DNA of 64,000 bases. Origin: a virus. This document shows positions 16,759-39,600 of this stretch, piece after piece. A model generated the notes under the pieces. It saw nothing but the letters and a program-made list of their open reading frames with translations, searched no databases and was not told where the DNA came from. The translations under genes and the position numbers were made by a program. Every line of letters starts with the position of its first letter. Position 1 is the stretch's first letter. Where the stretch lies: positions 1 to 64,000 of IMG/VR virus record IMGVR_UViG_3300025326_000029. One strand, written 5' to 3'.

Positions 16759-17778
16759 TTAAGCCGCTCGAAGCTTTTCTCGCACCTGTTCGGCAAATTC
16801 AGGATGCAAGCCAATATATTCACGCAAACTTGGCTCTCCATGTAGCCGTTCTCCATCTGGAGCTGTGTACCAACCTCCCCTACCACCACCGTTAATCAAG
16901 CCATGAAATTTGGCTGCCTTAACTAACTCCCAAGTTAGATCCCAACCACCACTAGCAAAATCATAACGCATCCTGGCTGTACGTAGTGGGCGACAAACTC
17001 TAGACTTGACTACTCGAGCTATCATTTCAATCCCCTCCGGCTCAGCCATCTCAGATGCCCCTTTCTGCATGGGAGCTTCTGGATCAAGACGGCCATCCGC
17101 AGTCCGATAAAGCCAAGTCGCTCGCTTAAAGTAAACTGTCATCGAGGAAACAAAATCAATAAACCGACCCCCTGGAGAATGCTCTCCACCAGTTTGACCA
17201 AAAGAATCTCGAGCTTGATTAATCATGATAACTGCATTATCAACGGCAAGTTTATCATGAACTCTAATAAGCACTTTTCCCCAAGCTCTAGCACTTAATC
17301 CTCGCTGCCACTCCTCAACTTTTGCGTTAAGAGCGTCAACTGAGATTGCATTGGCGAGAGAGTCAACTATATGTACATGATAAGTGCTAAGTAGCGACTC
17401 CATCATATCGCCAATAGATTCAATTTTTACTTCCTCAACAACACGAAAGCGATCACTACTCAGATCAATTCCTTGCTTGCTAACAAAATCAGGATCGAAT
17501 TGCTTCTCGATATTGTAATAGCATACCCCAAGACCCATCTTCATTGCATTACGCGTAACGTTCCACCCAGTAAGAGACTTACCGCTAGAAATCCCTCCCC
17601 ACAAATGTGTCCAACGCCCCATTGGTATCCCGCCACCTGTAGCATGGTCAAGCTCATGACTACCTGTACTAATTCGAGCGATAGGAGGAGCATCTATCCC
17701 AGAATGTATTGAACCTACGCCATATTTCTTTTCAATAGCAGCAAATACAAAACTAGCTTGCGACGGGTCTACCGGCAT
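16759..17778 (-). CDS. recA: RecA-like recombinase
   Basis: A 339-aa RecA-fold protein. Residues ~33-50 hold the STGSHELDHATGGGIPMG entry. Walker A is GGISSGKS at ~61-68. The YYNIEKQFDPDFVSKQGID segment carries the catalytic Glu, and Walker B is VHIVDSLANAIS. A disordered-loop region with GGEHSPGGRFIDF matches L2-type loops. It starts 26 nt inside the end of dnaE with GGGAGAGG upstream. It is expected to coat ssDNA and promote strand exchange with the phage SSB and nucleases. The C-terminal ~70 residues (Trp/Gly-rich) are not typical of bacterial RecA. Confidence 0.9.
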   Translation of the reverse strand: MPVDPSQASFVFAAIEKKYGVGSIHSGIDAPPIARISTGSHELDHATGGGIPMGRWTHLWGGISSGKSLTGWNVTRNAMKMGLGVCYYNIEKQFDPDFVSKQGIDLSSDRFRVVEEVKIESIGDMMESLLSTYHVHIVDSLANAISVDALNAKVEEWQRGLSARAWGKVLIRVHDKLAVDNAVIMINQARDSFGQTGGEHSPGGRFIDFVSSMTVYFKRATWLYRTADGRLDPEAPMQKGASEMAEPEGIEMIARVVKSRVCRPLRTARMRYDFASGGWDLTWELVKAAKFHGLINGGGRGGWYTAPDGERLHGEPSLREYIGLHPEFAEQVREKLRAA

Positions 17779-20700
17779 TTGCCTCTCCCTTTTTCAACGC
17801 ATTTACCAACTTTTCAATTTCACATGCAGTATCAGCAAGCACTGACCCCCTCTCTCTATCTTTTCGCCCGCCAACTATAACTATCTCACCAGAAAGCAAA
17901 AACCCCTTATATCTCATATATGGTTCAGCAAAAAATGTACATGAATACATATTCTCACCATACATTAGATCAACAAAAGCCATCTGACCGCGCTTGCTTT
18001 TGATCTCTCTTACGCTGATAACTTCTCCTGCGACAGTAACACGAGATCCGGGAGGTAGCTGTTCGATCTCATCAGATGAATGTATTCTAGCATCTATTAT
18101 ATCTTTATAACGCGACAGCTCTGATCCTCCACTAAGCGCAAAGCCAAGAATCTTTCGCTCTGCTTTCGCACAATCACGTTGCTCCCAATCGGCCCTACCA
18201 CCAATTGAATCAAACGCGCCACAATCATGAAGATTCTGTCTAGCGCGAGAATTACACCTTCGCGACATAACTCGTTGCTTAAAATCATCCAGCGAATAGA
18301 ACGGGCGCTTATCAATAATTTCTCCTATAGCTGCATCACCAACATAAGCAACAGGAGAAAGGCCAAAACGAATTGCATTAGTGTCTAATGTAAAGCTAAG
18401 TTCGGACGCGTTTATGTCTGGAGGAAGAATGTTGATCCCATGTGTAGTCGCCTCTCTGATTACTTTTGCCAATTTATCAGGCTCATAAGACATCAAAGCG
18501 GCGTAAAATTCTAACGGATAACGCAATTTAAGCCACATGTCGCGATAGGCTTCCATAGCATACCCTGCTGCATGCGAGCGATTGAATGAGTACTGGGAGA
18601 AGAAGATAACTTGCTTCCACACCCAATACGCGAAGTCCTTCTGCGAATGACCGAGGTTGGAACACACATCTGCGACAAATTCTTCCCCTTTTTGGCGCAA
18701 CTCTTTCGCTCCGCGTGGATCACGTAACGCTCCTTTTCCAATCGTATGTCTAAGTTCATCCGCTCTCGCTGGTGTCCATCCAGCCAGTTTAGAAGTCACT
18801 TGAACTACCTGTTCTTGAAAGACAATAATCCCGTACGTACGTTCTACAAAAGGCGTTGCTGGTCCCCATTGATCAAGATCGTAAGGCTTCCTTCCATTTT
18901 TTCTATCTCCATACAAATAGGCAGTACCTGAATCAAGAGGACCTGGACGATACAATGCATTTGCAGCAACAAGATCAGTGAAGCTTGTAGGTTTGATTTG
19001 TCGCAGCAAGCCGGTGATTCCCAATGACTCAAACTGAAAAACACCCAACGTCATTCCGTGGCCGAAAGCATCAATTACATCATTTTCAGCAGCATCTTGA
19101 TCAACGATGACAGGAAAACTATCAATGTCTTCAAAGTCGATTTTTATTCCATGACGTTGTTCTATTAGCCCCATTGCATAATCGCGTCTAGTCAACGCAT
19201 CAGTAGCTAATACATCAATTTTTACAAAGCCATATTTAACAATTGGCGTCTGCGACCACTGTGTGATCACATGACCATCTTTCGCTTTCATCGTGGGCAT
19301 ATACTCATAAATCGGCCTATCTGCTACAACAACACCACCAGGATGACGGGAGTTAGTCTTGGTCTGTCCCTCAATCCTGACAGCATGTTTCCAGACATGC
19401 GGATATTTTTCAGCAAAAGCTGCTACGCCAGAAATACTAAGCGCCGTTTCAAGCGTTGTGTCTCCATCAACACCTTCCAACAACGAAGTGACGTGCGCAG
19501 ATTCAGGGAAAGGAATTTTCAACACTCGAGAGACATCCTTAATTGCAGTCCGCATACCAAACGTAACATAACTAGCAATATCACTGACATTATCTCGCCC
19601 CCAGCGATCAGCAAGATAAGATTTGATTTCATTACGCCGATCATGCTGAAAGTCAATATCAACATCAGGTTGTTCTGCTCGATGCTCGTTTAAAAAACGC
19701 TCAAACAACAATTCGTGCCCGATCGGATCAACAGAAGTAATACGACAGAGAAAGGCGACCAACGACCCCGCAGCAGACCCTCTCCCCGCTCCAACTGCAA
19801 TTGGTCGTCCTGGCGCCTCAAACTTCGCCCATCTCACTGCGTCAGCAATGATAGCCATATAAGAAAGAGAATCCATTCGACGCATAACATCGAGTTCTTC
19901 TTCCATTCTCTTTCGATATTGAGCATCATCTTCTTTATGCAGTCTTTTCAGCCCTTCTTCGCACCAACTTCTCAATGCTTGCTCTGAGTTACCAGCTTGA
20001 GAAGAGAAACGAGGAATCTTGGGACTACGATCCAACTCAAGAAAATGTGAATGCGACACTATAAGATTGGTATTACTTATTGCTTCTGTAACTAAGTGAG
20101 CTGGTAGCTCTGGATGATGATGAGCGAAAGCAGCTAACGTTTCCTCTTTAGACATAACATAAAAACTATTTCCAGAGAAGGAAAGATAATCGTCGCCTTT
20201 TTCTCTTGCCGCCTCCCTTGTCTTAAGAGTTTGCCCAGTGCTACACATCACAAGCACATCATGTGTGCCTGCCCATTCTTCATAAGGGTAGTGAACATCG
20301 CAAGTAGCTACTAAAGGAAGACCATACTTTTGCGCGAAGGAGGCTAAATGCAAATTAGCGACCTTCTGCTCAGGAATATCATGCGGTTGAATCTCCACAA
20401 AAAGACGATCACCGAAGATCGAAACCATCCTCTTAAGCGCAGTCACCGCCTCTTCTTCATTCCCCTGTAGAAGCATGGCGGGAATAAAACCACTAAGACA
20501 GCTCGTGAAAGCTACTAGCCCATCAGAATAACGCTCAAGCAGATCCCAATCAACACAAGGTCTATAATAAAAATAATCTGATCTATAGGAAGCCGTGCTT
20601 AGTCTAATTAGATTTTTCCAACCATTCATATTTATCGCCAACAACACAAGATGATACGCACGCCGATTTTGTCTATTATGTTGTTTTGCATCTTCGCGAA

Positions 20701-20905
20701 AATAAGCTTCAATGCCGGGAATTGAACGCAGCCCATACTCATCACAAGCTTCACGATGTTCAAGTATCCCGGCCATCGTGCCATGATCCGTAAGCGCGAT
20801 AGCTTCGTGTCCTAACTCTGCAGCACGTGCCACATGTAAACGAGCCTTACCGCAGCCATCTAACTGTGAATAATCACAATGCGCATGTAGATGAACGAAG
20901 CCCAC
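17753..20905 (-). CDS. dnaE: DNA polymerase III alpha subunit (DnaE-type, with PHP domain)
   Basis: A 1050-aa family C polymerase. The PHP domain is complete-looking: FVHLHAHCDYS (residues 3-13), ALTDHGT (37-43), IPGIEAYF (62-69), TCDVHYP (201-207). The polymerase core has GAGRGSAAGSLVAF (~372-385), PDVDIDF (413-419, two catalytic Asp) and the third Asp in KIDVLATDALT (~562-572). An OB-like domain is near the C-terminus (GSRVTVAGEVISV). The start is GTG with AAGAGGAGAT upstream. No Pol A or Pol B gene is present, so this is the replicative polymerase. Proofreading could come from the PHP domain, as in actinobacterial DnaE1, or from the DEDDh exonuclease next door. Confidence 0.95.
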   Translation of the reverse strand: MGFVHLHAHCDYSQLDGCGKARLHVARAAELGHEAIALTDHGTMAGILEHREACDEYGLRSIPGIEAYFREDAKQHNRQNRRAYHLVLLAINMNGWKNLIRLSTASYRSDYFYYRPCVDWDLLERYSDGLVAFTSCLSGFIPAMLLQGNEEEAVTALKRMVSIFGDRLFVEIQPHDIPEQKVANLHLASFAQKYGLPLVATCDVHYPYEEWAGTHDVLVMCSTGQTLKTREAAREKGDDYLSFSGNSFYVMSKEETLAAFAHHHPELPAHLVTEAISNTNLIVSHSHFLELDRSPKIPRFSSQAGNSEQALRSWCEEGLKRLHKEDDAQYRKRMEEELDVMRRMDSLSYMAIIADAVRWAKFEAPGRPIAVGAGRGSAAGSLVAFLCRITSVDPIGHELLFERFLNEHRAEQPDVDIDFQHDRRNEIKSYLADRWGRDNVSDIASYVTFGMRTAIKDVSRVLKIPFPESAHVTSLLEGVDGDTTLETALSISGVAAFAEKYPHVWKHAVRIEGQTKTNSRHPGGVVVADRPIYEYMPTMKAKDGHVITQWSQTPIVKYGFVKIDVLATDALTRRDYAMGLIEQRHGIKIDFEDIDSFPVIVDQDAAENDVIDAFGHGMTLGVFQFESLGITGLLRQIKPTSFTDLVAANALYRPGPLDSGTAYLYGDRKNGRKPYDLDQWGPATPFVERTYGIIVFQEQVVQVTSKLAGWTPARADELRHTIGKGALRDPRGAKELRQKGEEFVADVCSNLGHSQKDFAYWVWKQVIFFSQYSFNRSHAAGYAMEAYRDMWLKLRYPLEFYAALMSYEPDKLAKVIREATTHGINILPPDINASELSFTLDTNAIRFGLSPVAYVGDAAIGEIIDKRPFYSLDDFKQRVMSRRCNSRARQNLHDCGAFDSIGGRADWEQRDCAKAERKILGFALSGGSELSRYKDIIDARIHSSDEIEQLPPGSRVTVAGEVISVREIKSKRGQMAFVDLMYGENMYSCTFFAEPYMRYKGFLLSGEIVIVGGRKDRERGSVLADTACEIEKLVNALKKGEANAGRPVAS

Positions 20906-23372: not shown

Positions 23373-24458
23373 CTACAGATGAAGCAATCGCTCTAGCTCA
23401 AGTAGCTGAAACGACCTTGCTGCAGCAATTCGCTCTCGCCAATAGTCACCGTCACGTAGCTGCGCAGGATCAAAGCCACCGCCATCAACAACAGCAGTAG
23501 GCATGACGGCAGAGAGTCTCGTTCCGATTCCCTGGCGCCAACGACTGCCATAGAGCGCGATCTCTCCCGCCTCATCAGCGTCCAGGAGCAAGACGAGACG
23601 CTCACAGTAAGAGCGCAGGAGCTTAAGCTGCTGATCTGAGAGGTAGCTCCCAGGAAGTCCCACAGCGTTGGCGATCCCCTCCTGACGCAGAGCGACAGCA
23701 TTCAGCTCCCCTTCGACGAGAACAAGCGCGCCGGAGCCAAGATCAGCCGAATGAAGGCCGTACACGAGGCCAGCTAACGCTGGCAGAGGGAAGCCGTATC
23801 GAACCGGACCGCCCTCACGATCACCAAGCACCCTGTATCGAGGCTGCTCATCGAGAACATGTGTTCGCGCCTTGAAACCGATCAACCGTCCTATGTGATC
23901 GCGTAGAGCGAAGCAGAGCCTGCCGGTAAGAGGATCGCAACCAAACTCATGTCGATCCAGGATCTCGGCAGAGAAGCCACGCATGAAGGCATATGAAACC
24001 CAGCCAGGAACACGTACGCCAGAGCGCCAAGCTTCCTCAGCGGCGCTCCAGTCTGTCGCCCGTTCCTGCAAGAAGACTTCTGGAAGAGGCTGTACAACCT
24101 CCTCCGAGGCTGTTCGCTTCGGGCGAAGGATTGCCTCAAGTTCATCCAACAGACTGCTCGCTGACTCTTTGAAGCCGTTTTCATAGCGCTCACGCAACCA
24201 TCTAGCAGCGAGAAGAGGAGAACAGCCTTCAAGCTCAGCAAGAAACGTAATAGCGTTCCCTTGTGCGCCACAACTCCAACACTTAAAAGCTGTTGTTTTT
24301 AGACTCATGGCCGCACTAGGATTTTGATCGCCGCGTCTGTGATCGGGGAATGGACAACTATAATTCGCCTGCAACCCTCTATTCGAACCTACAACAGAGA
24401 TATTTCTGATCCCCAACGACTCCAACATATCAATCACATCAATAGAAGCAATGTCCAC
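23373..24458 (-). CDS. dnaG: DNA primase (CHC2 zinc finger and TOPRIM)
   Basis: A 361-aa protein starting at GTG. The zinc finger is C35-x4-H40 (CPFPDH), then C60-x2-C63 (CWSCGAQG). The TOPRIM domain spans roughly residues 243-310, with LVLVEGELNAVAL (catalytic Glu) and LVLLLDADEAG (DxD). It is shorter than bacterial DnaG (~600 aa) and lacks a helicase-interaction domain, as is usual in phages. It makes RNA primers alongside the DnaB-like helicase encoded just upstream. GC content is clearly higher than in the neighbouring helicase and initiator genes. Confidence 0.93.
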   Translation of the reverse strand: MDIASIDVIDMLESLGIRNISVVGSNRGLQANYSCPFPDHRRGDQNPSAAMSLKTTAFKCWSCGAQGNAITFLAELEGCSPLLAARWLRERYENGFKESASSLLDELEAILRPKRTASEEVVQPLPEVFLQERATDWSAAEEAWRSGVRVPGWVSYAFMRGFSAEILDRHEFGCDPLTGRLCFALRDHIGRLIGFKARTHVLDEQPRYRVLGDREGGPVRYGFPLPALAGLVYGLHSADLGSGALVLVEGELNAVALRQEGIANAVGLPGSYLSDQQLKLLRSYCERLVLLLDADEAGEIALYGSRWRQGIGTRLSAVMPTAVVDGGGFDPAQLRDGDYWRERIAAARSFQLLELERLLHL

Positions 24459-24482: not shown

Positions 24483-24665
24483 CTACAGTACGTCCCCGAC
24501 CCTGAACCCATACTCTTCTTCTTCATCAAGCAGTGGCAGATCAATAGCGCATTCAATATGCACCCAAAGATCAGATTCTGTTTCAAAATAATCAATATCA
24601 TCGCCCTCATAAATATCTTCACCACACACATAACAACGTCCATCATAAGGAGCCTTTAGCATCAT
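24483..24665 (-). CDS. Small acidic zinc-finger protein
   Basis: A 60-aa protein overlapping the helicase stop as ATGA, with GGAGGT upstream. CYVCGEDIYEGDDIDYFE carries a CxxC and WVHIECA supplies H and C, giving a C-C-H-C zinc site of the LIM/PHD-like small-finger kind. The C-terminus is very acidic (LLDEEEEYGF). It lies between helicase and primase genes and may modulate them. Confidence 0.6.
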   Translation of the reverse strand: MMLKAPYDGRCYVCGEDIYEGDDIDYFETESDLWVHIECAIDLPLLDEEEEYGFRVGDVL

Positions 24666-25909
24666 GCACCTCCGTTAACGACTCTTGGAGCAAACGATTT
24701 TTCTAGCGACCATTCAGAAAAGTCCATATATTCCATGTCCCAGTGCATCAATACTGGAGGGCAGAGATCGCCGTCTCTATTTTTTAGAATTCTTACTTCC
24801 ATCCTTTTTTCTTCTCGCATCTCTTTCGTTTGATGAAGACCGAAAACAATATCAGAATCTTGTCCGATTGATCTTGCATAAGCAATATTATCAAGTTGAG
24901 CGCCAACGTTAAAGCTGGCAATATTCGTCTGGGCGACGCCAAAATAAGGAATGCGAAGAGAGCGTGCGCTCCACTTCAATTGACCAGTGATGTGTGTGAC
25001 TCGCTCCCAAAGCGAAGCTCCAGAAGTTTTAGGAGCGTCAAGCAGAGAAATATAATCTATTCCGACTAAATCAGGTCTATATTTTACAGCTTCTGCGTAA
25101 ACTCTATCAACCGTCGCCTTTCCCAAATTATCAAGTATGATAATATCATTAGAAGCATTTTTAGCTTTTTCAGCGGCTGCTTGCAGTCGTTCAATATCGT
25201 TTTTTTCAAGATTGCCAGACTTAAGTGCTCTATATTCAACTCTAGCAGCCATTGCATCAAGTTTTCTCAAGATAGCAGATGCTTCCATCTCTAATGAAAT
25301 CAAGAGAGGTTTATATCCTTCGCAGTAGGCGCTAAAAAAAATGTGCAACAATAGCGACGATTTTCCAGATCCCTGCCATCCGACAATAGACACATATTCA
25401 TGCGGGCGTATCCCCAGCGTTAATTCATTAAAAGTAGGTATACCTAGAGTGAGTCCACGACTGGTCCGCTCAAGATATTTTGCTAGCCTTGTGTCAGCAT
25501 GTTTATATTGAGAAACAAGCGAGCTAGGAAGCGCTTTAGCTAATTGTCGCGCCGCATCGTAAAAAATTGAGTCAATATTGTTCACTCGCTCATCTTCTGT
25601 TGCCTGTATTACTTCACGAAGCGATTCTATTGCCATCCTACGTTTTACCTCACGAAAAAAACAATCTCTAACGTAAGACAGAGGATCAGAAACAATTGGA
25701 AGCTCCCAATCAGGAAAAGCATCTGTAACGGCTCGTATCGATGGACAAGCATTGTACTGACGCTTGTATTCAACAAGATGGGACCAAACTTTAGCGCAGG
25801 CAGAATCTTTAAAATGGTGCTCCTCCACACCATACGTAATAAGCTCTTCCAGCATCCCGGTGTGAACACACTTCGAGAGAAGCCTGTGTTCAATATCACC
25901 TATCACCAT
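24662..25909 (-). CDS. dnaB: DnaB-like replicative helicase
   Basis: A 415-aa protein. Residues 1-130 match a reduced DnaB N-terminal domain (IEHRLLSKCVHTGMLEELIT...). The RecA-fold motor begins TLGIPTFNELTLGIRPHEYV. Walker A is GWQGSGKSSLL (177-187), the motif-1a-like segment is LLISLEMEASAI, Walker B is LVGIDYISLLDAP, and the motif-4 region is SIGQDSDIVFGLHQ. It is coupled by a 7-nt overlap to the upstream initiator gene. As a hexamer it would unwind the fork, loaded by the initiator protein. Confidence 0.92.
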   Translation of the reverse strand: MVIGDIEHRLLSKCVHTGMLEELITYGVEEHHFKDSACAKVWSHLVEYKRQYNACPSIRAVTDAFPDWELPIVSDPLSYVRDCFFREVKRRMAIESLREVIQATEDERVNNIDSIFYDAARQLAKALPSSLVSQYKHADTRLAKYLERTSRGLTLGIPTFNELTLGIRPHEYVSIVGWQGSGKSSLLLHIFFSAYCEGYKPLLISLEMEASAILRKLDAMAARVEYRALKSGNLEKNDIERLQAAAEKAKNASNDIIILDNLGKATVDRVYAEAVKYRPDLVGIDYISLLDAPKTSGASLWERVTHITGQLKWSARSLRIPYFGVAQTNIASFNVGAQLDNIAYARSIGQDSDIVFGLHQTKEMREEKRMEVRILKNRDGDLCPPVLMHWDMEYMDFSEWSLEKSFAPRVVNGGA

Positions 25910-27354
25910 TTCTCCACTGAAGTATTACCATCAGGAAGCCAACCAGGCTCCTCTTTCTCAGGATAAATAATGCCATCAGGAAGCCAACTGTCTTCTGGCT
26001 CTCCAAGCGTTATAAACTTTTGCCGCCTTCTTTCCTCTTCAGGTATGCCACTCACAAGAAACTGTTCGAATTCATCCATAAAGCTTCCTACTGGCTCTCT
26101 AAACTCAGGGCGCGTAGGTGGCTCTGATAAGGGTTGAACAAAATAAGCAGGACGCTGAAGTTCTGTCGCTTGCTCTGCATATGTTTCCTCTTCTTCCTTC
26201 TCTGCCACCATATCTTCTTCAGCCAACGTTTTCCACATGTTATCTTCACAAGCTGTTTTCCTTATTACAGCTTGTTCAATCTTTTTATCTCGCTCAAGAT
26301 TGATATTGCACTCCCTCAATTGCTCATACTTCTCACAAATATAAGCTTCATAAGCCTCTTTCAACTCATCCTCTGTCATATCTCTCCCCACTAACTCTTG
26401 TTCTAAATCATCAAGAACATCCATTATTATTGTATTATGAGTATTATAAGCATCACTCTCCATTTTAAATTTATGATACTCCTCCTCAATTTCTTCATCC
26501 CAGTACTCTTCCTGATTTATACTAAGTTGGTAACTGCTAACATCGTTTCTTTTCCTAGAGCAAATGTCACCGGCTGAAGCTTGCCGAGCTTCCACAGCTT
26601 CGCGTGTTTCTAGGAAGGAGCGAACTGAGGCCGAGCAGAGCGAGGCCGAAGCTTCGCTCGTTACTAGGAAGGTGGATGAGAGAGTGGCCGGAATTTGAAT
26701 TTCTCGCGCGCGCGTGTCTCGTTCTCTTGGTTCGTTAGAACCAAGAGTCTCGTGTTCTTCCTTCCCCGTAGGGGAAGTCTCGTACATAGTGTTCATGAGA
26801 TCGCTGCCATAGTGTTCATCCATAGTGTTCATGGCTGTTGTCTTCTCTGGCGACCGGAACAACTCTTCTGTTGCCTTCTGTGCAGACAAATACTGCCTAG
26901 CAACCGTCTCTTTAGCCGTCCGGTAGCGTCCGTTGCGACGGGTCGGGGGACCATCTTGGAACGCCTCCGGCCTCACGTAGATCACACCGTGGCTCCGGCA
27001 TTTGTGTGTTAGGCTACGCCAGCGCCAGATGTGCTGACGCTGAATCAACCCGGTTTGCTCTGCAAGGCGGAACGTTCTTCTCACCGCCTGCTCGCTGATC
27101 GAGAGATCGCCTGCGATCCGACTGATACTGGTGTAAACAGCAAAACCCATTTTTGGGCTTGCATAGCGAAGCAGGATCTGCAATAATCGTTTCCGGTAGA
27201 ACTCGGGCAACCGCAGGAACGGCGCCGTGTCCATGACGTGCTGCACGAACCTCGTGGTTGTCCGAACGTGATACTCTGGACGCCTAGAAACTTCGATCAG
27301 CGGCAAGAGTTCATCCATAACGAACTCAACCTGAGGGGATTTTCTATTAGTCAT
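25903..27354 (-). CDS. Putative replication initiator / helicase loader with winged HTH
   Basis: A 483-aa protein, first gene of the replication module, with AAGGAGG 4 nt before its ATG. Residues ~30-110 contain a winged-HTH (ISRIAGDLSISEQAVRRTFR, then LAEQTGLIQRQHIW). The middle (~150-270) is low-complexity and coincides with the DNA repeat cluster at 26.6-26.83 kb. The C-terminal half is highly acidic and helical and ends with two WLPDG motifs (DSWLPDG and PGWLPDG) 18 residues apart, which could be helicase-contact peptides. The layout of DNA-binding N-terminus, origin inside the gene, and helicase gene next recalls lambda O/P-type initiation. Assignment rests on context and HTH, not on a recognised Rep family. 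Confidence 0.7.
   Translation of the reverse strand: MTNRKSPQVEFVMDELLPLIEVSRRPEYHVRTTTRFVQHVMDTAPFLRLPEFYRKRLLQILLRYASPKMGFAVYTSISRIAGDLSISEQAVRRTFRLAEQTGLIQRQHIWRWRSLTHKCRSHGVIYVRPEAFQDGPPTRRNGRYRTAKETVARQYLSAQKATEELFRSPEKTTAMNTMDEHYGSDLMNTMYETSPTGKEEHETLGSNEPRERDTRAREIQIPATLSSTFLVTSEASASLCSASVRSFLETREAVEARQASAGDICSRKRNDVSSYQLSINQEEYWDEEIEEEYHKFKMESDAYNTHNTIIMDVLDDLEQELVGRDMTEDELKEAYEAYICEKYEQLRECNINLERDKKIEQAVIRKTACEDNMWKTLAEEDMVAEKEEEETYAEQATELQRPAYFVQPLSEPPTRPEFREPVGSFMDEFEQFLVSGIPEEERRRQKFITLGEPEDSWLPDGIIYPEKEEPGWLPDGNTSVEKW
26596..26671. repeat. Pair of 22-bp direct repeats inside the initiator gene
   Basis: Two copies at 26596-26617 and 26650-26671 share AGCTTCGC, GTT and CTAGGAAG blocks and differ at three positions. 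Their starts are 54 bp apart. They are in the same reading frame (peptides FLETREA and FLVTSEA), so protein-level duplication is possible. They border the palindromes and iterons further right and may belong to the same origin-like region. Confidence 0.6.
26714..26783. repeat. Three GTCTCGT repeats phased ~31-32 bp, alternating with palindromes
   Basis: GTCTCGT occurs at 26714-26720, 26745-26751 and 26777-26783, i.e. every three helical turns on one DNA face. Between copies 1 and 2 is a perfect 10-bp inverted repeat (CTCTTGGTTC, loop GTTA, GAACCAAGAG; 26722-26745). Between copies 2 and 3 is a perfect 7-bp inverted repeat (CTTCCCC, GTA, GGGGAAG; 26761-26777). The regular 7-mer plus hairpin unit lies in a low-complexity part of the initiator gene and looks like a protein-binding array. 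Confidence 0.7.
26785..26832. repeat. Three 12-bp iterons (CATAGTGTTCAT), putative origin element
   Basis: Perfect copies start at 26785, 26808 and 26821. On the coding (minus) strand each reads ATGAACACTATG. Copies at 26785 and 26821 encode MNTM, while the middle copy is in a different frame and encodes part of DEHYG. Conservation of the DNA across two frames argues for selection on DNA rather than on protein. This is typical of initiator-binding iterons within an initiator gene. Confidence 0.7.
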
Positions 27355-27563: not shown

Positions 27564-27749
27564 ATGAGCATCACTCACACTTGGCCGGGAGAGAGTGACA
27601 TGCGTCAAGCGATAGCCGAGCTAGAGGTCTTGCTAGGCGAGACTCCAGACATCACTGCTGAGGTCAAGGCGTACATTGAAGTTCTTGACGCCTTCGACAA
27701 GCTCACCGCAGCCCTCAAACGTTTCGATGATCTCAGAAAGAGGTCATAG
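27564..27749 (+). CDS. Island gene 1: small helical protein
   Basis: A 61-aa protein (MSITHTWPGESDMRQAIAEL...), all-helical and charged. ATG is preceded by GGAAGGG. First gene of a five-gene plus-strand cluster with GC-rich composition unlike the flanking modules. No known family. A possible small regulator or antitoxin-like helical dimer, without direct evidence. Confidence 0.55.
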   Translation: MSITHTWPGESDMRQAIAELEVLLGETPDITAEVKAYIEVLDAFDKLTAALKRFDDLRKRS

Positions 27750-27817
27750 GCGCTGTTCCTGATGGCGCCGCTCTCACCCTCCCCCTCGAGGGCGGCGTCT
27801 CCTTCACCCACGATCTT

Positions 27818-27860
27818 CCGCCGATCCGCTCTTCCTGGAGATACAAATGCGGATCGGCGG
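27818..27860 (+). promoter_or_regulatory. Long inverted repeat just upstream of a ribosome binding site
   Basis: A perfect 12-bp inverted repeat (CCGCCGATCCGC, 27818-27829, and GCGGATCGGCGG, 27849-27860) with a 19-nt loop. It sits directly before AGAAGGAGGT, the ribosome binding site of the gene at 27879. Outer ACGAT/ATCGT bases could extend the stem so that the site falls in an internal loop. Possible translational control hairpin. Confidence 0.5.
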
Positions 27861-27878
27861 AGAAGGAGGTCATCGTAG

Positions 27879-28070
27879 ATGGCCACTACAGATGACGAAG
27901 TCTGCATCCGCGTCGACAGCGAGCACCTTGATTCCCTGCTCGCGGCCTACCGGCTGATCGGCGCCATCGCCGAGGTGTCGCCGCTCAACCGCACCTACAC
28001 GCAGACGCTCGACGATCTCGACGAGCTGATCGGCCGCGTCCGCTACGAGATGCTGCGCAGCACGCCATGA
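27879..28070 (+). CDS. Island gene 2: small acidic helical protein
   Basis: A 63-aa protein (MATTDDEVCIRVDSEHLDSL..., then LDDLDELIGRVRYEMLR). A strong AAGGAGGT lies 8 nt before ATG, at the foot of a long hairpin. Its TGA overlaps the next ATG (ATGA). No recognisable domain; a helical bundle is expected. GC-rich third codon positions contrast with the replication genes on either side. Confidence 0.6.
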   Translation: MATTDDEVCIRVDSEHLDSLLAAYRLIGAIAEVSPLNRTYTQTLDDLDELIGRVRYEMLRSTP

Positions 28071-28507
28071 ACAGCTATCCATCGCAACCCCGCGCCTTTG
28101 GCTGGATTGCGGTCTGGGTTCTCGCGCTGATTCTGCTCTTCGGCTCAATCGGCATCGGCCTTTGGGTCTTCGGCGTGTTCACGGCTGATATCAGAGGCGC
28201 CGGGAATGCGATCAAGCAACGTCAATCGGCGGTAAATCGCATCCAGAAGCAGGAGTTGTTCGAGCAACTCGCCGCCGACTATGAAGGCTACCTCAGCAAG
28301 ATCGCCATCGCCGAGGGCGCGCTAACGCAGGCAGCAAAGACAGGGGATAGCGTCAATGCTGGGCTGCGCCAGACCGAACTCCTCGGCCTTCGCCAGACCT
28401 GCGTTGACGCTGCCCAGCAGTTCAACGCCGAGTCACGCAAGTACACGGCTCGCATCTGGAAATCGGCCGGTCTTCCCCTGACCCTCGATCCGGCTGACTG
28501 TCGCTAG
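28067..28507 (+). CDS. Island gene 3: membrane-anchored periplasmic/extracytoplasmic protein
   Basis: A 146-aa protein with one N-terminal membrane segment (residues ~10-35: WIAVWVLALILLFGSIGIGL). A helical extracytoplasmic domain follows (IKQRQSAVNRIQKQELFEQL and onward). Two cysteines (in LRQTCVDA and the terminal DPADCR) could form a disulfide. The architecture resembles LemA-like or small membrane-tethered helical proteins. Coupled to the previous gene by ATGA. May act in the cell envelope, e.g. superinfection exclusion, but this is speculation. Confidence 0.6.
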   Translation: MNSYPSQPRAFGWIAVWVLALILLFGSIGIGLWVFGVFTADIRGAGNAIKQRQSAVNRIQKQELFEQLAADYEGYLSKIAIAEGALTQAAKTGDSVNAGLRQTELLGLRQTCVDAAQQFNAESRKYTARIWKSAGLPLTLDPADCR

Positions 28508-28516
28508 GAGGGCGAA

Positions 28517-29044
28517 ATGAGAAGGTTCATCATCATCGCGAGTGCGATTCTGATTGTCAGTGTGGTCGGCGCTAGCTATGCGTTTGCTGGCAAGCCGGAC
28601 TGGTTCAAGCAGCAAGAGCTTGTGTCAGATTCGATCGCAAAGCAGCAGATCGCCGCAGTGCCCTATCCGCAGGCGCAGATGCGCGACTCGCTCGAGCGGC
28701 GCAATCTGCGCGAGCGGCTTCTACGCTTCAACAAGCCGCAGAAGATCGGTTACCTGTACCTGATGTCATTCGGCAAGTTCGTCGGCTACTACGTGGTCAA
28801 GGGAAAGATCAGCTCAACGCAGTCGCAGATGACGAACTTGGTACAGACGTGGGAGGCAAGCAAGGACCAGGATACTATCGTGCCGTCGGTTGGCGACGAC
28901 GGTTCCTTTGGCGAGAACGAGGGCGGCTCGGCTGGGATCTTCTTCTTTACCGCTCAAGGCGTTCTCGTTGAGACGACGCTGGATTGGGTCTACTCCGATG
29001 CACCGCTGAACGTCGATGTTCCTAACCTGCTCAAGCGGCCATGA
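28517..29044 (+). CDS. Island gene 4: exported protein
   Basis: A 175-aa protein with a clear Sec signal peptide (MRRFIIIASAILIVSVVGAS then YAFAGK, predicted cleavage after AFA). AGGAGG lies upstream of ATG. The mature part has LRERLLRFNKPQKIGYLYLM and FGKFVGYYVVKGKISS, a pattern I associate with uncharacterised proteins scattered in phages and plasmids of several bacterial groups. A Gly/Ser-rich loop and a hydrophobic strand end the protein. With the preceding membrane protein it suggests an envelope function for the island. Confidence 0.65.
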   Translation: MRRFIIIASAILIVSVVGASYAFAGKPDWFKQQELVSDSIAKQQIAAVPYPQAQMRDSLERRNLRERLLRFNKPQKIGYLYLMSFGKFVGYYVVKGKISSTQSQMTNLVQTWEASKDQDTIVPSVGDDGSFGENEGGSAGIFFFTAQGVLVETTLDWVYSDAPLNVDVPNLLKRP

Positions 29045-29223
29045 GCGCGCCCTACGCCTGCGAGTTGTGCGGCAGCGACCACAAAAGCGGTCGCGAGTGG
29101 CTGGTCTGGGCCTCATTCGATAGGCAACCCAAGCGCATCCGGGTGTACCTCTGCGACCTGTGTTTGGACGAGGTCGCTCGCGGACAAGTGCCGGGAGTCA
29201 GTTCTTCTTGGGAATGGAGCTAA
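29041..29223 (+). CDS. Island gene 5: small zinc-finger protein
   Basis: A 60-aa protein overlapping the previous stop as ATGA. Two CxxC pairs (YACELCGSDH and YLCDLCLDEV) ~29 residues apart form a zinc ribbon or knuckle. It ends at the exact point where the minus-strand modification cassette begins (convergent overlap of 4 bp). No terminator hairpin was seen at this end of the island. Confidence 0.6.
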   Translation: MSAPYACELCGSDHKSGREWLVWASFDRQPKRIRVYLCDLCLDEVARGQVPGVSSSWEWS

Positions 29224-29504
29224 CTAAATGTTACGTTGTCGTTGGCTATCGTCACGGTCCAACCAACATCGCGGAATTGCTGTGCTACTTGTTGAACGGC
29301 TGTGCGCCCAGCTCTCAAGCGACAAGTCTTGAGAATTCTACCAAATTCTGAATCTGCGGCTCCTTCTAAGAGTTCTACCGAACCACCAGGAGTCCATTCT
29401 TCCTGAAGTTTAACATTAATTGCTTGAACTAGACTGTCTATAGCATTTTCTGTTCGCTCTTGTGAAAATGCTGTAGCTTCTATTTTCGTTAATGGCTCTA
29501 CCAT
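29220..29504 (-). CDS. Hypothetical protein at end of modification cassette
   Basis: A 94-aa protein. ATG at 29504 (MVEPLTKIEATAFSQERTEN) is chosen because AAGGA lies 9 nt upstream; an ATG at 29513 is too close to it. Alpha/beta in style, with SEFGRILKTCRLRAGRTAVQ and a terminal strand DVGWTVTIANDNVTFS. A protein of similar size and ending occurs at 35708 in the tail block, but the sequences are not clearly related. Function unknown. Confidence 0.6.
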   Translation of the reverse strand: MVEPLTKIEATAFSQERTENAIDSLVQAINVKLQEEWTPGGSVELLEGAADSEFGRILKTCRLRAGRTAVQQVAQQFRDVGWTVTIANDNVTFS

Positions 29505-29523
29505 TATTATCATTCCTTTTTTA

Positions 29524-30003
29524 TTAAGCTAGTCGATAACCTTCCGCGCAAATAACAGCAGGTGGGTCACCATCAGCTACAAGTGTTATATTTTCAAAAT
29601 CTGCTTCTCGCATTTTCTTCTTGAGCAACGTCGTTGTGAATCCCGCCATATGAACATCAAACTCGTCTTTACGATGACCGCCAAAGATATAATAAACAGC
29701 CATTTCTTCGTCAATTTCTCCACTAAGAAGCGCTTCTGCTTGCCACTCTAAATTAGGCACTTCTAAATATATACTTCCTCCTGTGTTCAACAACTGCCAC
29801 CAAATTCTTAATATCGAGACTGTTTCTGTGTAACTAAAATGCTCTAAAAGATGACAGGCTCGCACTTTGGTGCAGCTATTAGCAGGTACATAATTAAGAA
29901 TGTCTCGTGCGTCGCAAATGAATTCAATATCAGGCAGCGAGCGAATATCTTGATGCGTATAGCCAGGATATGGACGGTCCCCTGATCCTAGTTCTAGCTG
30001 CAT
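29524..30003 (-). CDS. SAM-dependent methyltransferase (class I)
   Basis: A 159-aa protein. LELGSGDRPYPGYTHQDIR (residues ~3-21) is the SAM-binding glycine loop plus acidic strand 2. FICDARDILNYV and ACHLLEHFSY supply the next conserved strands, and GGSIYLEVPNLEW is the late strand. Short bacterial methyltransferases of this type usually act on sugars or small glycans. The third methyltransferase in the cassette, 3 nt downstream of the second. Confidence 0.8.
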   Translation of the reverse strand: MQLELGSGDRPYPGYTHQDIRSLPDIEFICDARDILNYVPANSCTKVRACHLLEHFSYTETVSILRIWWQLLNTGGSIYLEVPNLEWQAEALLSGEIDEEMAVYYIFGGHRKDEFDVHMAGFTTTLLKKKMREADFENITLVADGDPPAVICAEGYRLA

Positions 30004-30006
30004 AAT

Positions 30007-30525
30007 TTACGCTCTTATCGCCCAGATAGAGTAGGCTTCACGACGTTCTTCATCCTGGAATAACTCTTTGATGTTCCAACTTGATTCTTTCATCACGAGT
30101 TCAATGAGTTCTCTGTCCCACCCGAAAAGATGCTCTCGCGGGACTGGCGGTAGAGTTGCTTCATCTACTGAACGCCAGTTTGTAAGTTGATCGTCGCAGG
30201 GAATAGTAACACAAAGTTTTTGTGCAACTCTTGAGGCTTCTGTTAGCGCTCGAGTAGCTTCAGAACGAGAAAGATGTTCCAAGATCTCACACATCACCAC
30301 GAGTTCTGCTGAATTGTCTTCGAACGGCCAAGTCTTGGTGGCATCCATCACTATATCGATTGCGATGGAGCCGCCCATATCAAAGTCTGTCTCTAAGATG
30401 TCGCAATTGAGAACGCGAGCACCAAAGCTTGCTTTGAGTCTAGCGGGATCTTCTTTCGAGCCGACATTCAGAACGACACCTTCTGTTCGAGAGACGCACT
30501 CCCATTGCCAAGCTAGCCTATCCAT
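30007..30525 (-). CDS. SAM-dependent methyltransferase (class I)
   Basis: A 172-aa protein. The SAM motif VVLNVGSKEDPARLKASFGA lies around residues 17-36, followed by NCDILETDFD, IDIVMDATKTWPFEDNSAEL and the VVMCEILEHL motif. It overlaps the FkbM gene by 13 nt. Sequence style is close to glycan or small-molecule methyltransferases in polysaccharide clusters. The acceptor is unknown. Confidence 0.8.
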   Translation of the reverse strand: MDRLAWQWECVSRTEGVVLNVGSKEDPARLKASFGARVLNCDILETDFDMGGSIAIDIVMDATKTWPFEDNSAELVVMCEILEHLSRSEATRALTEASRVAQKLCVTIPCDDQLTNWRSVDEATLPPVPREHLFGWDRELIELVMKESSWNIKELFQDEERREAYSIWAIRA

Positions 30526-31160
30526 TCACGCTTGAAACCGAACTCGATGCAATGTTCAATATTGGGACCTTTCATCGTAACCATCTCTGTCTCAAAGCCT
30601 AATGCAGCAATGTCTCTAAGACACTCAAGTGGTTCGTACTCATAATGTGTCTCAACGCTGAGGCAACGTACTTGTTTGATCCATTGTGCGTTAATAGAAG
30701 ACTCAAATAAACTTCTTTCCATACCTTCAATGTCGAATTTCATAAAATCAATAGTTTTACCACTTAGATTTGCGAAGTCGAGAAAAGAATCGAGCGTTAA
30801 ACAGCTTTGACCTTTATCTGAATCTTCTGCCTGCACGATGTTGTGCATATTTGTTGCAGGAGAATCGTAGCGACACCAGCCGTCCCAAATGGCGATACCT
30901 ATGTTGTAGACAGTCGCTTGCTTGTAAGCGGTTAAGTTCTCTACAGCAAGCTCCCAGTTGCCTCGATCAAGTTCCGCGCCAATTACTTTGGCCTCTGGGA
31001 ATTTTTTACAGTAATCGATCATCGTTAGGCCGATATTAGCGCCTAGATCAACGATCAGTTTAACGTCTTTAAGCCAGTTTGGTGGGAGATGGAAGCCATA
31101 TTCAACATCTACCGCTGTACATTTATCTGTATCGTCGCGCAGTCTTACCATAATGCCCAT
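30513..31160 (-). CDS. FkbM-family methyltransferase
   Basis: A 215-aa protein. DVKLIVDLGANIGLTMIDYC is the FkbM SAM loop. VIGAELDRGNWELAVENL, then CLTLDSFLDF and IDFMKFDIEGMERSLFESSI (with the characteristic KxDIEG) confirm the family. FkbM enzymes O-methylate sugars or polyketides; in phage cassettes they commonly accompany glycosyltransferases. ATG at 31151 is an alternative start. It overlaps the glycosyltransferase gene upstream. Confidence 0.88.
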   Translation of the reverse strand: MGIMVRLRDDTDKCTAVDVEYGFHLPPNWLKDVKLIVDLGANIGLTMIDYCKKFPEAKVIGAELDRGNWELAVENLTAYKQATVYNIGIAIWDGWCRYDSPATNMHNIVQAEDSDKGQSCLTLDSFLDFANLSGKTIDFMKFDIEGMERSLFESSINAQWIKQVRCLSVETHYEYEPLECLRDIAALGFETEMVTMKGPNIEHCIEFGFKREWIG

Positions 31161-31924
31161 TCTTGTAAACGACTCAGAGGTAACTCTAAATCTGGATAGA
31201 TTCTCGCAAGAGGGCTACCATCAGGTGCTCCACTTTCATGCACATGAGCTACGCGTACAACAGTGTCTATCCAGGACTGAAAACCGTTTCTAGCAGCTTC
31301 CAAGCAAAACCACTCACCATGTTCAATGACTCCCGTCGCCGCATTTTCATCTATTGAGTTACCAAACTTTGGTCCTGGCTGTTGCTCGTACCATCTTGGA
31401 CGCTCAGAAACATCAATTTCGAAGCACTCACTTCTAATGACCATGTTATCTGTACTCGGCCAGCCGACCGGTACAAGATCGCCACTTAAAAGTTCCTCTT
31501 GAGGAACATCGTCCTGGCATTGAGTTAGAGAGCCATCTCGTATGACCCATCTGCGCGCACAAGCCAAACTAACGTCTGTGCGTCCACTAATCAAAGCAGA
31601 AACGATTGGGAGATCGTGGCTGATTAACCCCTGAAAATCAGCCTGACTGCGATAGAGAGCGTCCATCCCTTGCCAAAGCATTTTGTCATAGCCATTTTCA
31701 ATTGCAAGTTCGCGCGTCTCTTCGCGTGCATAAGAAACGATATCTTCAACCATTTGTAATCCGGAAGGAAGTTGAATTTCGTCGCCTGGATAATCGCCAG
31801 CCCAGATGACGTCTACATTTTCCACTCCACGTACGCAAGCCAACATCATCTCAGATAATGCGTCGCGGACATAGTTTTTAGTGAAGCCATAACGGGATAC
31901 GCACAGAAGAAGACGGCCATTCAC
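31145..31924 (-). CDS. Putative GT-A glycosyltransferase
   Basis: A 259-aa protein with GTG at 31924 overlapping the upstream stop (GTGA). It starts with a Rossmann-like strand (RLLLCVSRYGFTKN). DYPGDEIQLPSGLQMVEDIV and GYDKMLWQGMDALY occupy the place of the donor-binding DxD region, but no clean DxD is present. SGRTDVSLACARRWVIRDG, then GDLVPVGWPSTDNMVIR are typical of small Anp1/MNN-like glycosyltransferases in phage cassettes. Family call moderate; it works with the next-door gene by context. Confidence 0.6.
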   Translation of the reverse strand: MNGRLLLCVSRYGFTKNYVRDALSEMMLACVRGVENVDVIWAGDYPGDEIQLPSGLQMVEDIVSYAREETRELAIENGYDKMLWQGMDALYRSQADFQGLISHDLPIVSALISGRTDVSLACARRWVIRDGSLTQCQDDVPQEELLSGDLVPVGWPSTDNMVIRSECFEIDVSERPRWYEQQPGPKFGNSIDENAATGVIEHGEWFCLEAARNGFQSWIDTVVRVAHVHESGAPDGSPLARIYPDLELPLSRLQEWALW

Positions 31925-32724
31925 AATGACCACTTATCGTCAAGAATGATTTTATTAGCCTGCTGATGAGGAATCTGTTCCTCCCATTCATCAGCAAAAT
32001 AAAGACGATGTGGCAAGGAGTATGCTACGCTATTACCTATCATAAGAAGTGAATAGTTCATTGTTTCAGCTTCAGCAGCTAATGCTTGATTTTCATAAGC
32101 TTGTCCTCGACCAAAGTCTTCATCAAAACGTAATCCATCTCGCACTGCATTCATAGGTATTGCAGCCCAATTCAATTCCCAGCTAATTGGGTTAATAAAA
32201 CAGATATCTAATTCCGATTGTAGTTTATAACTACGCACATCACGCCAGAGTAAACTGTTGATGTCTGGAGGTCCGATAAACGGATCGACAAACACTGTAT
32301 ACAGTCCTTCCGGATCAATAACTTTTTCTACTTCTGGATTATTTGTAATATGCGTTATACCAGTTAATAGTGAGTCCATGCTTCCGCTATGAAAGACAAA
32401 CTTCTCTAAGTTACCAGGCGGTAGCCAAATATAATCTTGTAATGAAACAAATAATTCTACGTCAAGCTCCATCGCAAGTTCAAAACCCATGTTGTACCAA
32501 CGTGGTAATTCACTGTAGTATCCTTCACGTTTTTTAGAAGTATCAAAGTAAACAATAGGACAGAGATCGCGTGAGATTTCGTCGTAAAGACTAGCTCTTG
32601 CGGACAAGTGATCGTCTCCAATGATCCAGATAAGATCATGCTGTCCGAGTTGATTGCGAATCGCGTCTACGCTCACATCGATTCCGCCCCACCGTTTAGT
32701 GGGTGTGAAGATCGCTATCTTCAC
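31921..32724 (-). CDS. Putative GT-A (GT2-like) glycosyltransferase
   Basis: A 267-aa protein starting at GTG overlapping the 64-aa gene (GTGA). The first strand MKIAIFTPTKRWGGIDVSVD and HDLIWIIGDDHLSARASLYD fit the N-terminal nucleotide-binding half of GT2 enzymes. A helix with ELDVELFVSLQDYIWLPPGN holds the place of the DxD (here LQD). AVRDGLRFDEDFGRGQAYEN resembles the GT2 acceptor-side ED motif. First sugar-transfer gene of the cassette. Confidence 0.7.
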   Translation of the reverse strand: MKIAIFTPTKRWGGIDVSVDAIRNQLGQHDLIWIIGDDHLSARASLYDEISRDLCPIVYFDTSKKREGYYSELPRWYNMGFELAMELDVELFVSLQDYIWLPPGNLEKFVFHSGSMDSLLTGITHITNNPEVEKVIDPEGLYTVFVDPFIGPPDINSLLWRDVRSYKLQSELDICFINPISWELNWAAIPMNAVRDGLRFDEDFGRGQAYENQALAAEAETMNYSLLMIGNSVAYSLPHRLYFADEWEEQIPHQQANKIILDDKWSL

Positions 32725-33625: not shown

Positions 33626-33922
33626 CTATCGCTGTCCACTTTTACGCGAACGGATGTTGCGGAGATGCTTGTCAATCTCTTCGTGAGTCGGCTTATAATG
33701 AGGTAAACCGCTGCCAGGTCTGAAATCCTCTTGTGAAATCCACTCAAGGATGGCCTTGATCTGCTCAGCGGTCCAGAAGCGCCTGTTGTCAACCGATCGG
33801 TAAGGCTGTAGCGCTTGTGGGAACTTCTTACTGTAGCCCCAGGCGCGCAACGTGTGCGGTCGCCTGTTCAGCAGCTTCGCTGCCTCGCTGATGTAAATTC
33901 GCTCTATCCTGTCGATCGTCAC
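33626..33922 (-). CDS. MerR/excisionase-like HTH protein
   Basis: A 98-aa protein. GTG at 33922 has AAGGGG 8-9 nt upstream. Residues ~9-55 (YISEAAKLLNRRPHTLRAWG, then PYRSVDNRRFWTAEQI) form the winged HTH with the wing R-x-F/Y-W typical of MerR/Xis-type DNA-binders. The basic C-terminus (KHLRNIRSRKSGQR) may touch DNA. It overlaps the last 95 nt of the helicase gene in another frame. It sits next to an operator-like repeat, which suggests autoregulation or control of the modification operon. Confidence 0.72.
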   Translation of the reverse strand: MTIDRIERIYISEAAKLLNRRPHTLRAWGYSKKFPQALQPYRSVDNRRFWTAEQIKAILEWISQEDFRPGSGLPHYKPTHEEIDKHLRNIRSRKSGQR

Positions 33923-35904: not shown

Positions 35905-36630
35905 TTATGCACGCATTATTTTATTAACTATGATCGTTGGTGGTATGTTTTGATGAGCCTGATCAGAACCAGTGTTATTAACATTGATAGTAGCGCTAGT
36001 AGCAGTTGTTGTTTTATTCACTGTCTGATTAGAGTGATAAGGCCAGTTGCCACCAGCTTCAGCCCAAGTCATCAGGTTGCCATCGTTGATGGCGAATCCA
36101 GTTTGTCCTGCATCTCCGCCTGGTGTGCCAAATGGGGCTCCTCCGTAAACGACAACAAGCGGTGTTGTATGTGAGTGGCTAGGACTCGTAGCTGAATGAT
36201 TGTGCGCAGGCATCTGAAGAGATGTGATGACGACTGCTTCTTGGCCTCCAGCTAGCCCTAGTATTCGTCCGTCTAAGCCAGCCCCAGCAATCGTAACTCT
36301 GTTTGCGGCAGTACCTCCCATGTCATCCTTACCTACTCCTGAGCGACCTCTGTAATCAGGAAGATTGAACGTCGTCGATCCATCACCAACCCCGTATGGA
36401 TAGCCAGATGATTGTGCGATAAGATGCAAGGCGGCAAAAGTCGCACGTGATACAGCTTGCCCATAAGGGAGCACGTAGCCAACTGGGATCTCGCTGGCAC
36501 CCCAAGGCCAGTCAAGCACCGAACCGACTGGCATAGAGTTACTGCCTCCAACATGCTCAAGACGAGCTAGGCGGACGTCAATTTCGCCCAAAGACGCAAA
36601 TAAGTCTTCCTGTCGCAGTGATCTGGTCAC
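35905..36630 (-). CDS. Tail-collar-domain fibre protein
   Basis: A 241-aa protein. A helical start (LGEIDVRLARLEH) leads to the phage tail-collar domain: MPVGSVLDWPWGASEIPVGY, then VLPYGQAVSRATFAALHLI, and GDGSTTFNLPDYRGRSGVGK. The His-rich MPAHNHSATSPSHSHTT segment is the usual metal-binding region of receptor-binding tips. GTGA overlap with the hub gene. Probably the distal, host-contacting fibre. Confidence 0.9.
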   Translation of the reverse strand: MTRSLRQEDLFASLGEIDVRLARLEHVGGSNSMPVGSVLDWPWGASEIPVGYVLPYGQAVSRATFAALHLIAQSSGYPYGVGDGSTTFNLPDYRGRSGVGKDDMGGTAANRVTIAGAGLDGRILGLAGGQEAVVITSLQMPAHNHSATSPSHSHTTPLVVVYGGAPFGTPGGDAGQTGFAINDGNLMTWAEAGGNWPYHSNQTVNKTTTATSATINVNNTGSDQAHQNIPPTIIVNKIMRA

Positions 36631-39600
36631 GATATCGCCGTTTCAAGCGAAACTACTTGCTCGTTGTCTTCATCATCAATCTGAAGTGTTGCCTTAAAAA
36701 CTCGCATTGCCTGTTTTTCTGTCTTGATATTTCCATAATCAACTGATAAATAGACTTTGTCACCCAAGTAATAATCTTTGAACAGACGTGGTTGCGGAAC
36801 AGATTCACTATATGGCATTGGCACAATTTCCCAAGACACTCGCGGTAAACTTCTAAGTGCAACTTCTACTCCAGCATATGCTCCTGCGATCCCCTGTTGT
36901 ACTGTTCCAATTGTAATATAGTCCTCGAGTCTTCCGTAACGAGCCTCACTTATAGTATCTTCTGCAAATTCTGCCAAACTCCCTGCGCCACCTTGCACTG
37001 TTACGTAGTTAGCTAGAATTGATCCATCTTTAATTCGCCGCACATTTTGAATATTACTAGTCGCTACGTTATAAGCAAATAATGCATTAGGTCTGTCTGT
37101 CATATATTGTCCATAGATTTCTAGAGTACGTGTAATTGGATCAACTATAAAGTCGAAACCACTTTCAACATCTGAAAGCTCTTTAATCATTCTACCAATA
37201 TTATAGAACTTTTCATATGTAGCAGAGCGAATTTGTGTTGGTTCAGTGTAACCAATTCTTACATACGGGGCGGGAGGAGAATAAGTACTTAAACTGGAAA
37301 TAGCATCGTTCACGATCGTAGCTGCATCAACGTCTGTGAAGATCATTTTTATAGGCAAGAAGCGATGATTAAGCTCTTCGAACCAGCCAACTGCGACTAC
37401 ATTCATTGTTTCATCGGGCAAATTTTCTTCAATTGTCCATACAGGTCCTGACCAAACGACTTCATCATCCCGTAACACCATGATGCAATGTTCAACTGGA
37501 GAAATTTCTTGAGCTAGGTCGCTGTTAACTGGCATAGTAAAATTAGCAGATCCTGGTTCGTTCAAAGCAAGTGTTAGTTGCTTATTCCTAGCAAATATTA
37601 GAGAGCCAATTCGTGTCATATCATCAGAATTAGCTAAGACAAACTCCCATCGTGTACGCTTTAGCTTAGTAGTAAAACTTGCTGGTTCAAAAATGTGACC
37701 AAAAGCTTCTTCTGAGGAGATACCGATAGCGAAAATAACGTTAGGTTGTATAGTAGTAATTGTTCCAAAAGCTTCTTGAGAAGTGATGCCTACAACAGTA
37801 ATTTGACTTGGCAATATAGGTTCAATTATGCTAAAAGCTTCTTCGCTTGTGATACCTACAATCACTAATTTCTGATTTAGCTTAAGCGTTCCAAAAGCTT
37901 CTCCTGAAGCGATTCCAGCAGGAAAGACTGCTAGACCAATAGTTACTGCTCCTGCTCCGAACGCTTCCTGCGAATCGATTCCTACTACCGAGAAACTGAC
38001 GTTGAGTTTTGGCGCTCCAAAGGCTTCCTCTGATCCAATTCCAGCAGTAGACACAACAAGTTTGGCTGTAACTGTTCCAAAAGCTTCTTCTGAGGCGACG
38101 CCAGTAACAGAGAAACGTTGATTGGTTGCGGTTTCTCCAAAAGCTTCTTCTGAAGTGATCCCAACTACAGAAAATTGTATATTCAGCTTTGGGGCGCCAA
38201 ATGCTTCTTGGGAAGCCATCCCAGCTGGTTGGACATCTGAATCAGTACGAATAGCTCCAAAAGCTTCTTCTGAAGTTATTCCTGTAACAGCAACAATAAC
38301 ACTGGAAATTTGAATAATAACTGCTCCTAGCGCCTCCTCCGAAGAAATGCCAGTAACAGTTATATTTTGTGGGACAATTAGTGTTCCGAACGCTTCTTCA
38401 GAAGCGATACCAAAAGGCAAAATAGATAGATCTATGCCACCGTATGAATCAGTTCCGTAGGTGTTAGCTCCATAGACATATCGCGAGACTGCATTTACTG
38501 CCAGCGCAGATGTCCATGGACTGTACCGTTCTTCAAGAGGTAAATCAGGAGGAATAGCGTTAATATTATACGATGTTGCCCATGAACCAAAGTGAAATGC
38601 ACCAAAAGGTGCGGCGTTGATTTGAGTAGAGGTAGACCAGGCAGAACTATGCTCGTCACCGGTTGATACAAATGATGTCGAATTAATGTTTGAAGAGCTA
38701 GACCATGCACCAATATTCATAAAAGGTGGTGGCGGCGGCGGTGGTGGTGTTACTCCACCGAGACTTGTAGGTACACGAAAAGCATTCTCATTAAAATCAG
38801 CCAAACGCTCCCAACTGGTATCTCCATAATTAGTTCCACAACCATAATAAATACTATATGCATCAGTACCATAAAATGTCGGGCGATCAGCCAATGCTTC
38901 AAACAACGTTTTTCCAACGCGAGGCAATGTAAAATCACTTTGCGCTGAAGGTGGCGTCAAGTGGCTCACTGGATGATAATTACCACACCATAGATTAATC
39001 CAATATCGACCCCAAGTTGTTGGATCATCACTTTGTGTATTGTAATTTCGTCTTGAGATAACCGGGGTATCATTTCCATTTAGCCAGACATCAAGTTCGC
39101 CAGGGCGTACACTGGATCCATCAGTTCTACCAAAAACTACTCGAATAATCCAGTCGTGCCAAAGACCATCTTCAGGTTTGGGAAGTATCATTGACGCTCT
39201 AGTGTTTGCTGGACCATACTCAGCAACAATTTCATAATGAGGTGAAGATACTACAAGACCATCATCATGGGTATGTGGCCCTACATAATCAAATGCAAGT
39301 GGTGAGACGCCATACCAAGGAAATGGTGTAACCCCTCCTCCAGCACAGTCATGCCAATTTAACCAGCGCCAGGGATATTTAAATCCCGCAGTTACTTTCA
39401 TGCTGACCACGAACCACCATTCATCATGACCCTTAATTCCAGTTCTTGGATCAGTTTTTCGCGGATCAGTCATGATAAAACGATTAACACTACCATCTCC
39501 ATTTGGACTTTGATATAGTGTCGTAGGACTGGCACTGAATAAAAATACACTGGCATAATGATTAGAACCGCAAGGAGGATAACCAATCTCTCTTAGATTG

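Follow-up and report, generated by a model that had tools for sequence, protein, structure and literature searches.

The window analysed here, the whole stretch of 64,000 nucleotides, comprises bases 1–64000 of the 66,389-bp IMG/VR virus record IMGVR_UViG_3300025326_000029. Most of the genes, and all of those for replication, are on the minus strand; the latter follow the order putative initiator, dnaB, then primase, SSB-like protein, exonuclease, DnaE polymerase, RecA-like protein and 5'–3' exonuclease. The first of these, the putative replication initiator, specifies a protein of 483 amino acids (25903–27354, minus strand), and its end overlaps the start of the gene for a DnaB-type replicative helicase (24662–25909, minus strand). 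Further along are a DnaG-type primase possessing a Zn ribbon and a Toprim domain (23373–24458, minus strand) and a DnaE-type DNA polymerase III alpha subunit (17753–20905, minus strand). No dedicated helicase-loader gene was recognised adjoining the 483-aa gene, and a scan of the region for promoters and terminators gave results near chance.

Several other products of this phage deserve mention. A 239-aa protein (14171–14890) joins matches resembling sigma-70 regions 2 and 4 to a C-terminal LuxR-type (GerE) DNA-binding domain, an unusual combination, and is possibly a phage sigma factor. A 1002-aa tail-region protein (36627–39635) carries approximately 12 copies of a GI(T/S)SEEAFG repeat, and a 2899-aa tape-measure-like protein (43056–51755) contains, as judged by eye, peptidase-like and lytic-transglycosylase-like segments. 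Next to the replication operon lies a GC-rich island on the plus strand (27564–29044). Relatives of its 146- and 175-aa genes adjoin one another in phage G003 (47% and 63% identity), and those of the 146-aa gene also occur in actinobacteriophages, where they are sometimes annotated as membrane proteins.

The initial annotation had ascribed a winged helix-turn-helix to the 483-aa protein. Residues 52–107 show weak matches to HTH_36 [library-wide E 0.018, single-record E 6.7e-5] and to phrog_270, “replication initiation protein” [library-wide E 0.0026, single-record E 2.4e-5], but the HTH_36 match is under the curated cut-off, and single-sequence AlphaFold models were poor (mean pLDDT 44–48). 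A PDB fold search with models of this quality is meaningless, and its results were discarded. The C-terminal half of the protein is acidic. Profile searches gave no match to the lambda O family (PF04492 or phrog_277), to which lambda O itself, as a positive control, scored 5.7e-36 and 1.2e-152, respectively. The Rep_3-type family of plasmid iteron initiators was absent among the Pfam matches down to E 0.1. By tblastn the best plasmid match had an E value of 3 and phage homologs were absent, the N-terminal half alone giving E values of at least 2; nor were homologs found among IMG/VR and GTDB genomes at the sensitivity used.

Repeats within the putative initiator gene

The gene contains three perfect copies of the 12-bp sequence CATAGTGTTCAT, at 26785–26796, 26808–26819 and 26821–26832 (plus-strand orientation), with start-to-start spacings of 23 and 13 bp. 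An exact search of the whole 66,389-bp record found these three copies and no others, all on the plus strand. The initial annotation had given the repeats and their reading frames correctly: read on the minus strand, the copies at gene nucleotides 523 (codon 175, phase 0; 26821–26832) and 559 (codon 187, phase 0; 26785–26796) encode MNTM, and that at nucleotide 536 (codon 179, phase 1; 26808–26819) is out of frame within DEHYG. The second and third copies together form an exact 13-bp tandem repeat, CCATAGTGTTCAT. The repeats had further been described as conserved; this holds among the copies inside the one genome but not across genomes, no second genome with the gene having been found. Searches for the paired iterons returned from IMG/VR only an unrelated tail coiled-coil gene on two contigs, and from GTDB genomes only three unrelated minisatellites; all were rejected.

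Nowhere else in the 64-kb window are three copies of a 9- to 12-mer gathered inside 100 bp, and no 12-mer triple arose in 100 first-order Markov sequences. When the gene was synonymously recoded with the protein fixed, two or more identical 12-mers appeared in 17–18% of trials and three or more in 0.06–0.2%, and codon-order shuffles of the linker gave 5e-5. The two MNTM copies by themselves are therefore unremarkable, and it is the out-of-frame middle copy that matters. This bears directly on the suggestion that selection acts on MNTM as a peptide, the DNA identity being only a consequence. Two copies do encode this peptide, and an unrelated phage tail gene has the same pair through MNTMNNGMNTMN, but with the middle copy in another frame and three copies so rarely produced from the protein alone, we regard such an origin of the repeats as highly improbable.

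The genomes were also scanned for clusters, defined as three copies of a 12-mer inside 100 bp with no more than one mismatch. In phage lambda, the positive control, the scan returned a single cluster, the annotated ori-lambda iterons; in the record studied here it returned two, the iterons within the gene and an array at 66.16–66.31 kb. Among 2.0 Mb of related phage DNA there were 32 clusters, 29 of them with a spacing that is a multiple of three, as in peptide repeats, and three out of frame (approximately 1 per 0.7 Mb). One of these three belongs to a distant relative, L015, in which three 12-bp repeats with 22- and 23-bp spacing (63–119) lie approximately 700 bp upstream of a DnaD-like/replisome-organizer gene (871–1641); by the same test this might be regarded as another origin candidate.

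The scarcity of out-of-frame clusters also argues against a functionless local duplication, produced by slippage in a fast-evolving linker. In its favour, copies 2 and 3 form a perfect 13-bp tandem, other weak repeats are also present in the linker, and the same motif recurs between genes of unrelated bacteria, in minisatellites whose periods are 13, 9 and 15 bp. The first copy, however, stands 23 bp off behind an unrelated spacer, and the repeats coincide with the stability minimum and skew change described below. On balance we consider mere duplication unlikely.

Replication initiators often autoregulate, and the three sites could be an operator at which the putative winged-helix protein would halt or tune transcription of the operon that encodes it, with no part in an origin. 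Lying approximately 520 bp inside the gene, they might serve as a roadblock. Yet no further iteron-like sites with up to three mismatches were found in or near the gene, including the promoter region upstream of 27354, and an operator would not account for the presence of the stability minimum and the skew change in the same gene. The odds that regulation is the whole function of these sites seem to us low. We are left with direct repeats, in the coding sequence of a putative initiator, which peptide repetition does not explain.

Duplex stability, hairpins and GC skew

By nearest-neighbour stability the least stable DNA of the 66-kb record is found in the same gene, the lowest 100-bp window being at 26392 and the lowest 150-bp window at 26390. 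The region 26390–26540 also contains AT-rich 9-bp near-repeats on the minus strand (TTATAATAC, TCATAATAC and AATAATAAT), and we consider it a candidate DNA-unwinding element. It is approximately 250–390 bp from the iterons, copy 1 being the closest; thus an AT-rich element of the kind seen in initiator-embedded origins is present in the same gene, but approximately 245 bp from the nearest iteron. Between the two lies an inverted repeat, CTCTTGGTTC/GAACCAAGAG (26724–26747), whose 10-bp arms match perfectly around a loop of 4 nt, and a shorter hairpin, CTTCCCC/GGGGAAG (26760–26777), adjoins the iterons. The single-strand fold of the hairpin region has a z score of -2.2.

GC-skew analysis, which the initial annotation had proposed, placed the best single change point of the whole record at 26571, inside the 483-aa gene (68% interval approximately -1.6 to +0.4 kb; 95% interval -5.5 to +1.5 kb), and none of 500 permutations of 2-kb blocks gave as strong a change. 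At fourfold sites of minus-strand genes the GC and AT skews are +0.20 and -0.28 to the left of the gene versus 0.00 and -0.08 to its right (gene permutation p 0.0004 and <0.0002). Since the contrast persists when the comparison is restricted to the virion and packaging genes of both sides (p 0.03 and 0.0002), it is not simply one of early versus late genes. To the left the minus strand is rich in G and T, a sign that fits forks moving leftward from approximately 26.6 kb with these two bases enriched in the leading strand. The change could instead reflect transcription units. In lambda, moreover, the main skew change is at 20049 and not at ori, and the AT-rich tract is not extreme in stability. 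Because both signals fail to mark the known features of lambda, they are here supportive and not decisive.

The second cluster raises the question of an origin elsewhere, with the repeats of the gene serving another role. Outside the window, near the end of the record, are three imperfect 46-bp AT-rich tandem repeats with TTCTATTATATAG boxes (66164–66308 in the phage's own record, G000; approximately 6162–6308 in L097), followed by a G run. This array is possibly a second origin, a packaging site or a promoter array. It is non-coding, its boxes are regularly spaced and, if the record is circular, the opposite end of the high-skew arc (1948) is approximately 2 kb away. Against it, the skew has the sign that one would expect of forks starting at 26.6 kb and terminating at the other end, and the array is far from the replication genes. 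We think it quite improbable that replication starts there or elsewhere and not in the gene.

Relatives and the composition of the gene

Searches with the polymerase and helicase identified a series of related phages in IMG/VR (L010–L012 and L102–L124) with helicases 37–45% identical to that of the present phage. Helicase, primase, SSB-like protein, polymerase, RecA-like protein, terminase and portal are common to these relatives at approximately 31–52% identity, but the initiator gene was found in none of them by tblastn or profile. A search of 25 polymerase-bearing relative records gave only one weak helix-turn-helix match of 49 residues, interrupted by stops. In most relatives dnaB is the first gene of the operon, behind an AT-rich intergenic region of approximately 100–440 bp, and in many cases it and the small terminase gene are divergently oriented. 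No iteron cluster of the 12-bp type was seen in this intergenic region. Phages G002 and G003 show no comparable fourfold-site arm asymmetry at dnaB, so that the skew of the relatives yields no origin there.

The arrangement in front of dnaB varies. In L110 and L111 a MerR-like gene and two small genes directly precede it, the first being clearly related to that at 33626–33922 of the window (51% identity). At the place where dnaB follows these small genes the studied phage has a cargo block (29220–32724), situated between its own MerR-like small gene group and the putative initiator and containing an FkbM-type methyltransferase and methyltransferase- and glycosyltransferase-like genes. Because the relatives are without the gene, the initiator with its cargo block represents either an addition in the studied lineage or a loss elsewhere.

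The 483-aa gene is itself uneven in composition. The third-position GC is 0.58–0.72 over its first 150 codons and 0.26–0.38 over its last 200, which are AT-rich like the rest of the genome, and the iteron and hairpin region falls between the two portions. A chimeric gene is a reasonable, unproven reading of these values. With a GC-rich, putatively DNA-binding N-terminal half, an AT-rich half proximal to the helicase and the iterons between, the origin would then mark the junction within a chimeric initiator gene. One might go further and propose that a portable cassette of initiator plus origin was joined to dnaB in a phage family otherwise without an initiator gene at this position, in which case a DNA-recognition function and the sites that it recognises would be transferred as a unit. 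This we offer as a possible but rather doubtful extension.

The proposed origin and known systems

We suggest as the most likely explanation, with a probability of roughly 0.6, that a replication origin is embedded in the putative initiator gene. The observed basis for this is a set of exact repeats that span two frames and are unique in the record, the record-wide stability minimum, the skew change and the overlapping dnaB, which together with the weak winged helix lend support to the initial annotation's idea of origin-like sites in an initiator-type gene. We infer that the putative winged-helix initiator would bind the three 12-bp direct iterons within the part of its gene that encodes the linker, and that AT-rich DNA approximately 250–390 bp further along the same gene would then open. 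The single strand would be handed to, or loaded with, the DnaB-type helicase from the overlapping next gene, after which forks would leave both ways. Counting against an embedded origin are the small number of iterons, only three, 13 and 23 bp apart, and their distance of approximately 250 bp from the AT-rich region; the relatives, which replicate without a 483-aa gene beside dnaB; and the rival array at 66.16–66.31 kb.

If correct, this would be the first candidate origin for a family of uncultured phages equipped with DnaB, primase and DnaE polymerase of their own. Comparison with relatives that have the shared replication genes but in no case the initiator would also permit one to ask how phages gain or change an origin.

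The initial annotation had likened the locus to lambda O. In lambda the origin, composed of iterons and an AT-rich tract, is in the middle of gene O (PMC7466680), and ori-lambda possesses four 18-bp iterons of hyphenated dyad symmetry, spaced at 20–24 bp, with an adjacent 39-bp AT-rich region (PMC6022878). The general plan is the same in both phages: direct-repeat iterons in the middle of an initiator gene, an AT-rich region further along, and an initiator gene overlapping the next replication gene. The likeness extends neither to membership of the PF04492 and phrog_277 families nor to the close geometry, since the studied phage has three 12-bp repeats at spacings of 13 and 23 bp, AT-rich DNA approximately 250 bp away and hairpins between. 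Furthermore, the next gene specifies the loader P in lambda but DnaB itself in the present phage.

Bacteriophage SPP1 offers a second comparison. In its gene 38, which encodes the initiator, oriL comprises direct repeats and an AT-rich unwinding element, and a DnaB-type helicase of the phage is among its early replication genes (PMC6316719). Direct repeats and an AT-rich element in a putative initiator gene, together with a phage DnaB-type helicase, are likewise present here. SPP1 differs in having a second origin, oriR, a dedicated loader, gp39, and reliance on the host polymerase, whereas the studied phage encodes its own primase and DnaE polymerase and has no recognised adjacent loader. This kind of origin is already known; judged from its sequence, the present example would be a new and unrelated one, from a phage family not characterised before. 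It would add to the cases in which the gene for an initiator also contains the origin, here with an initiator that does not belong to the lambda O family by sequence.
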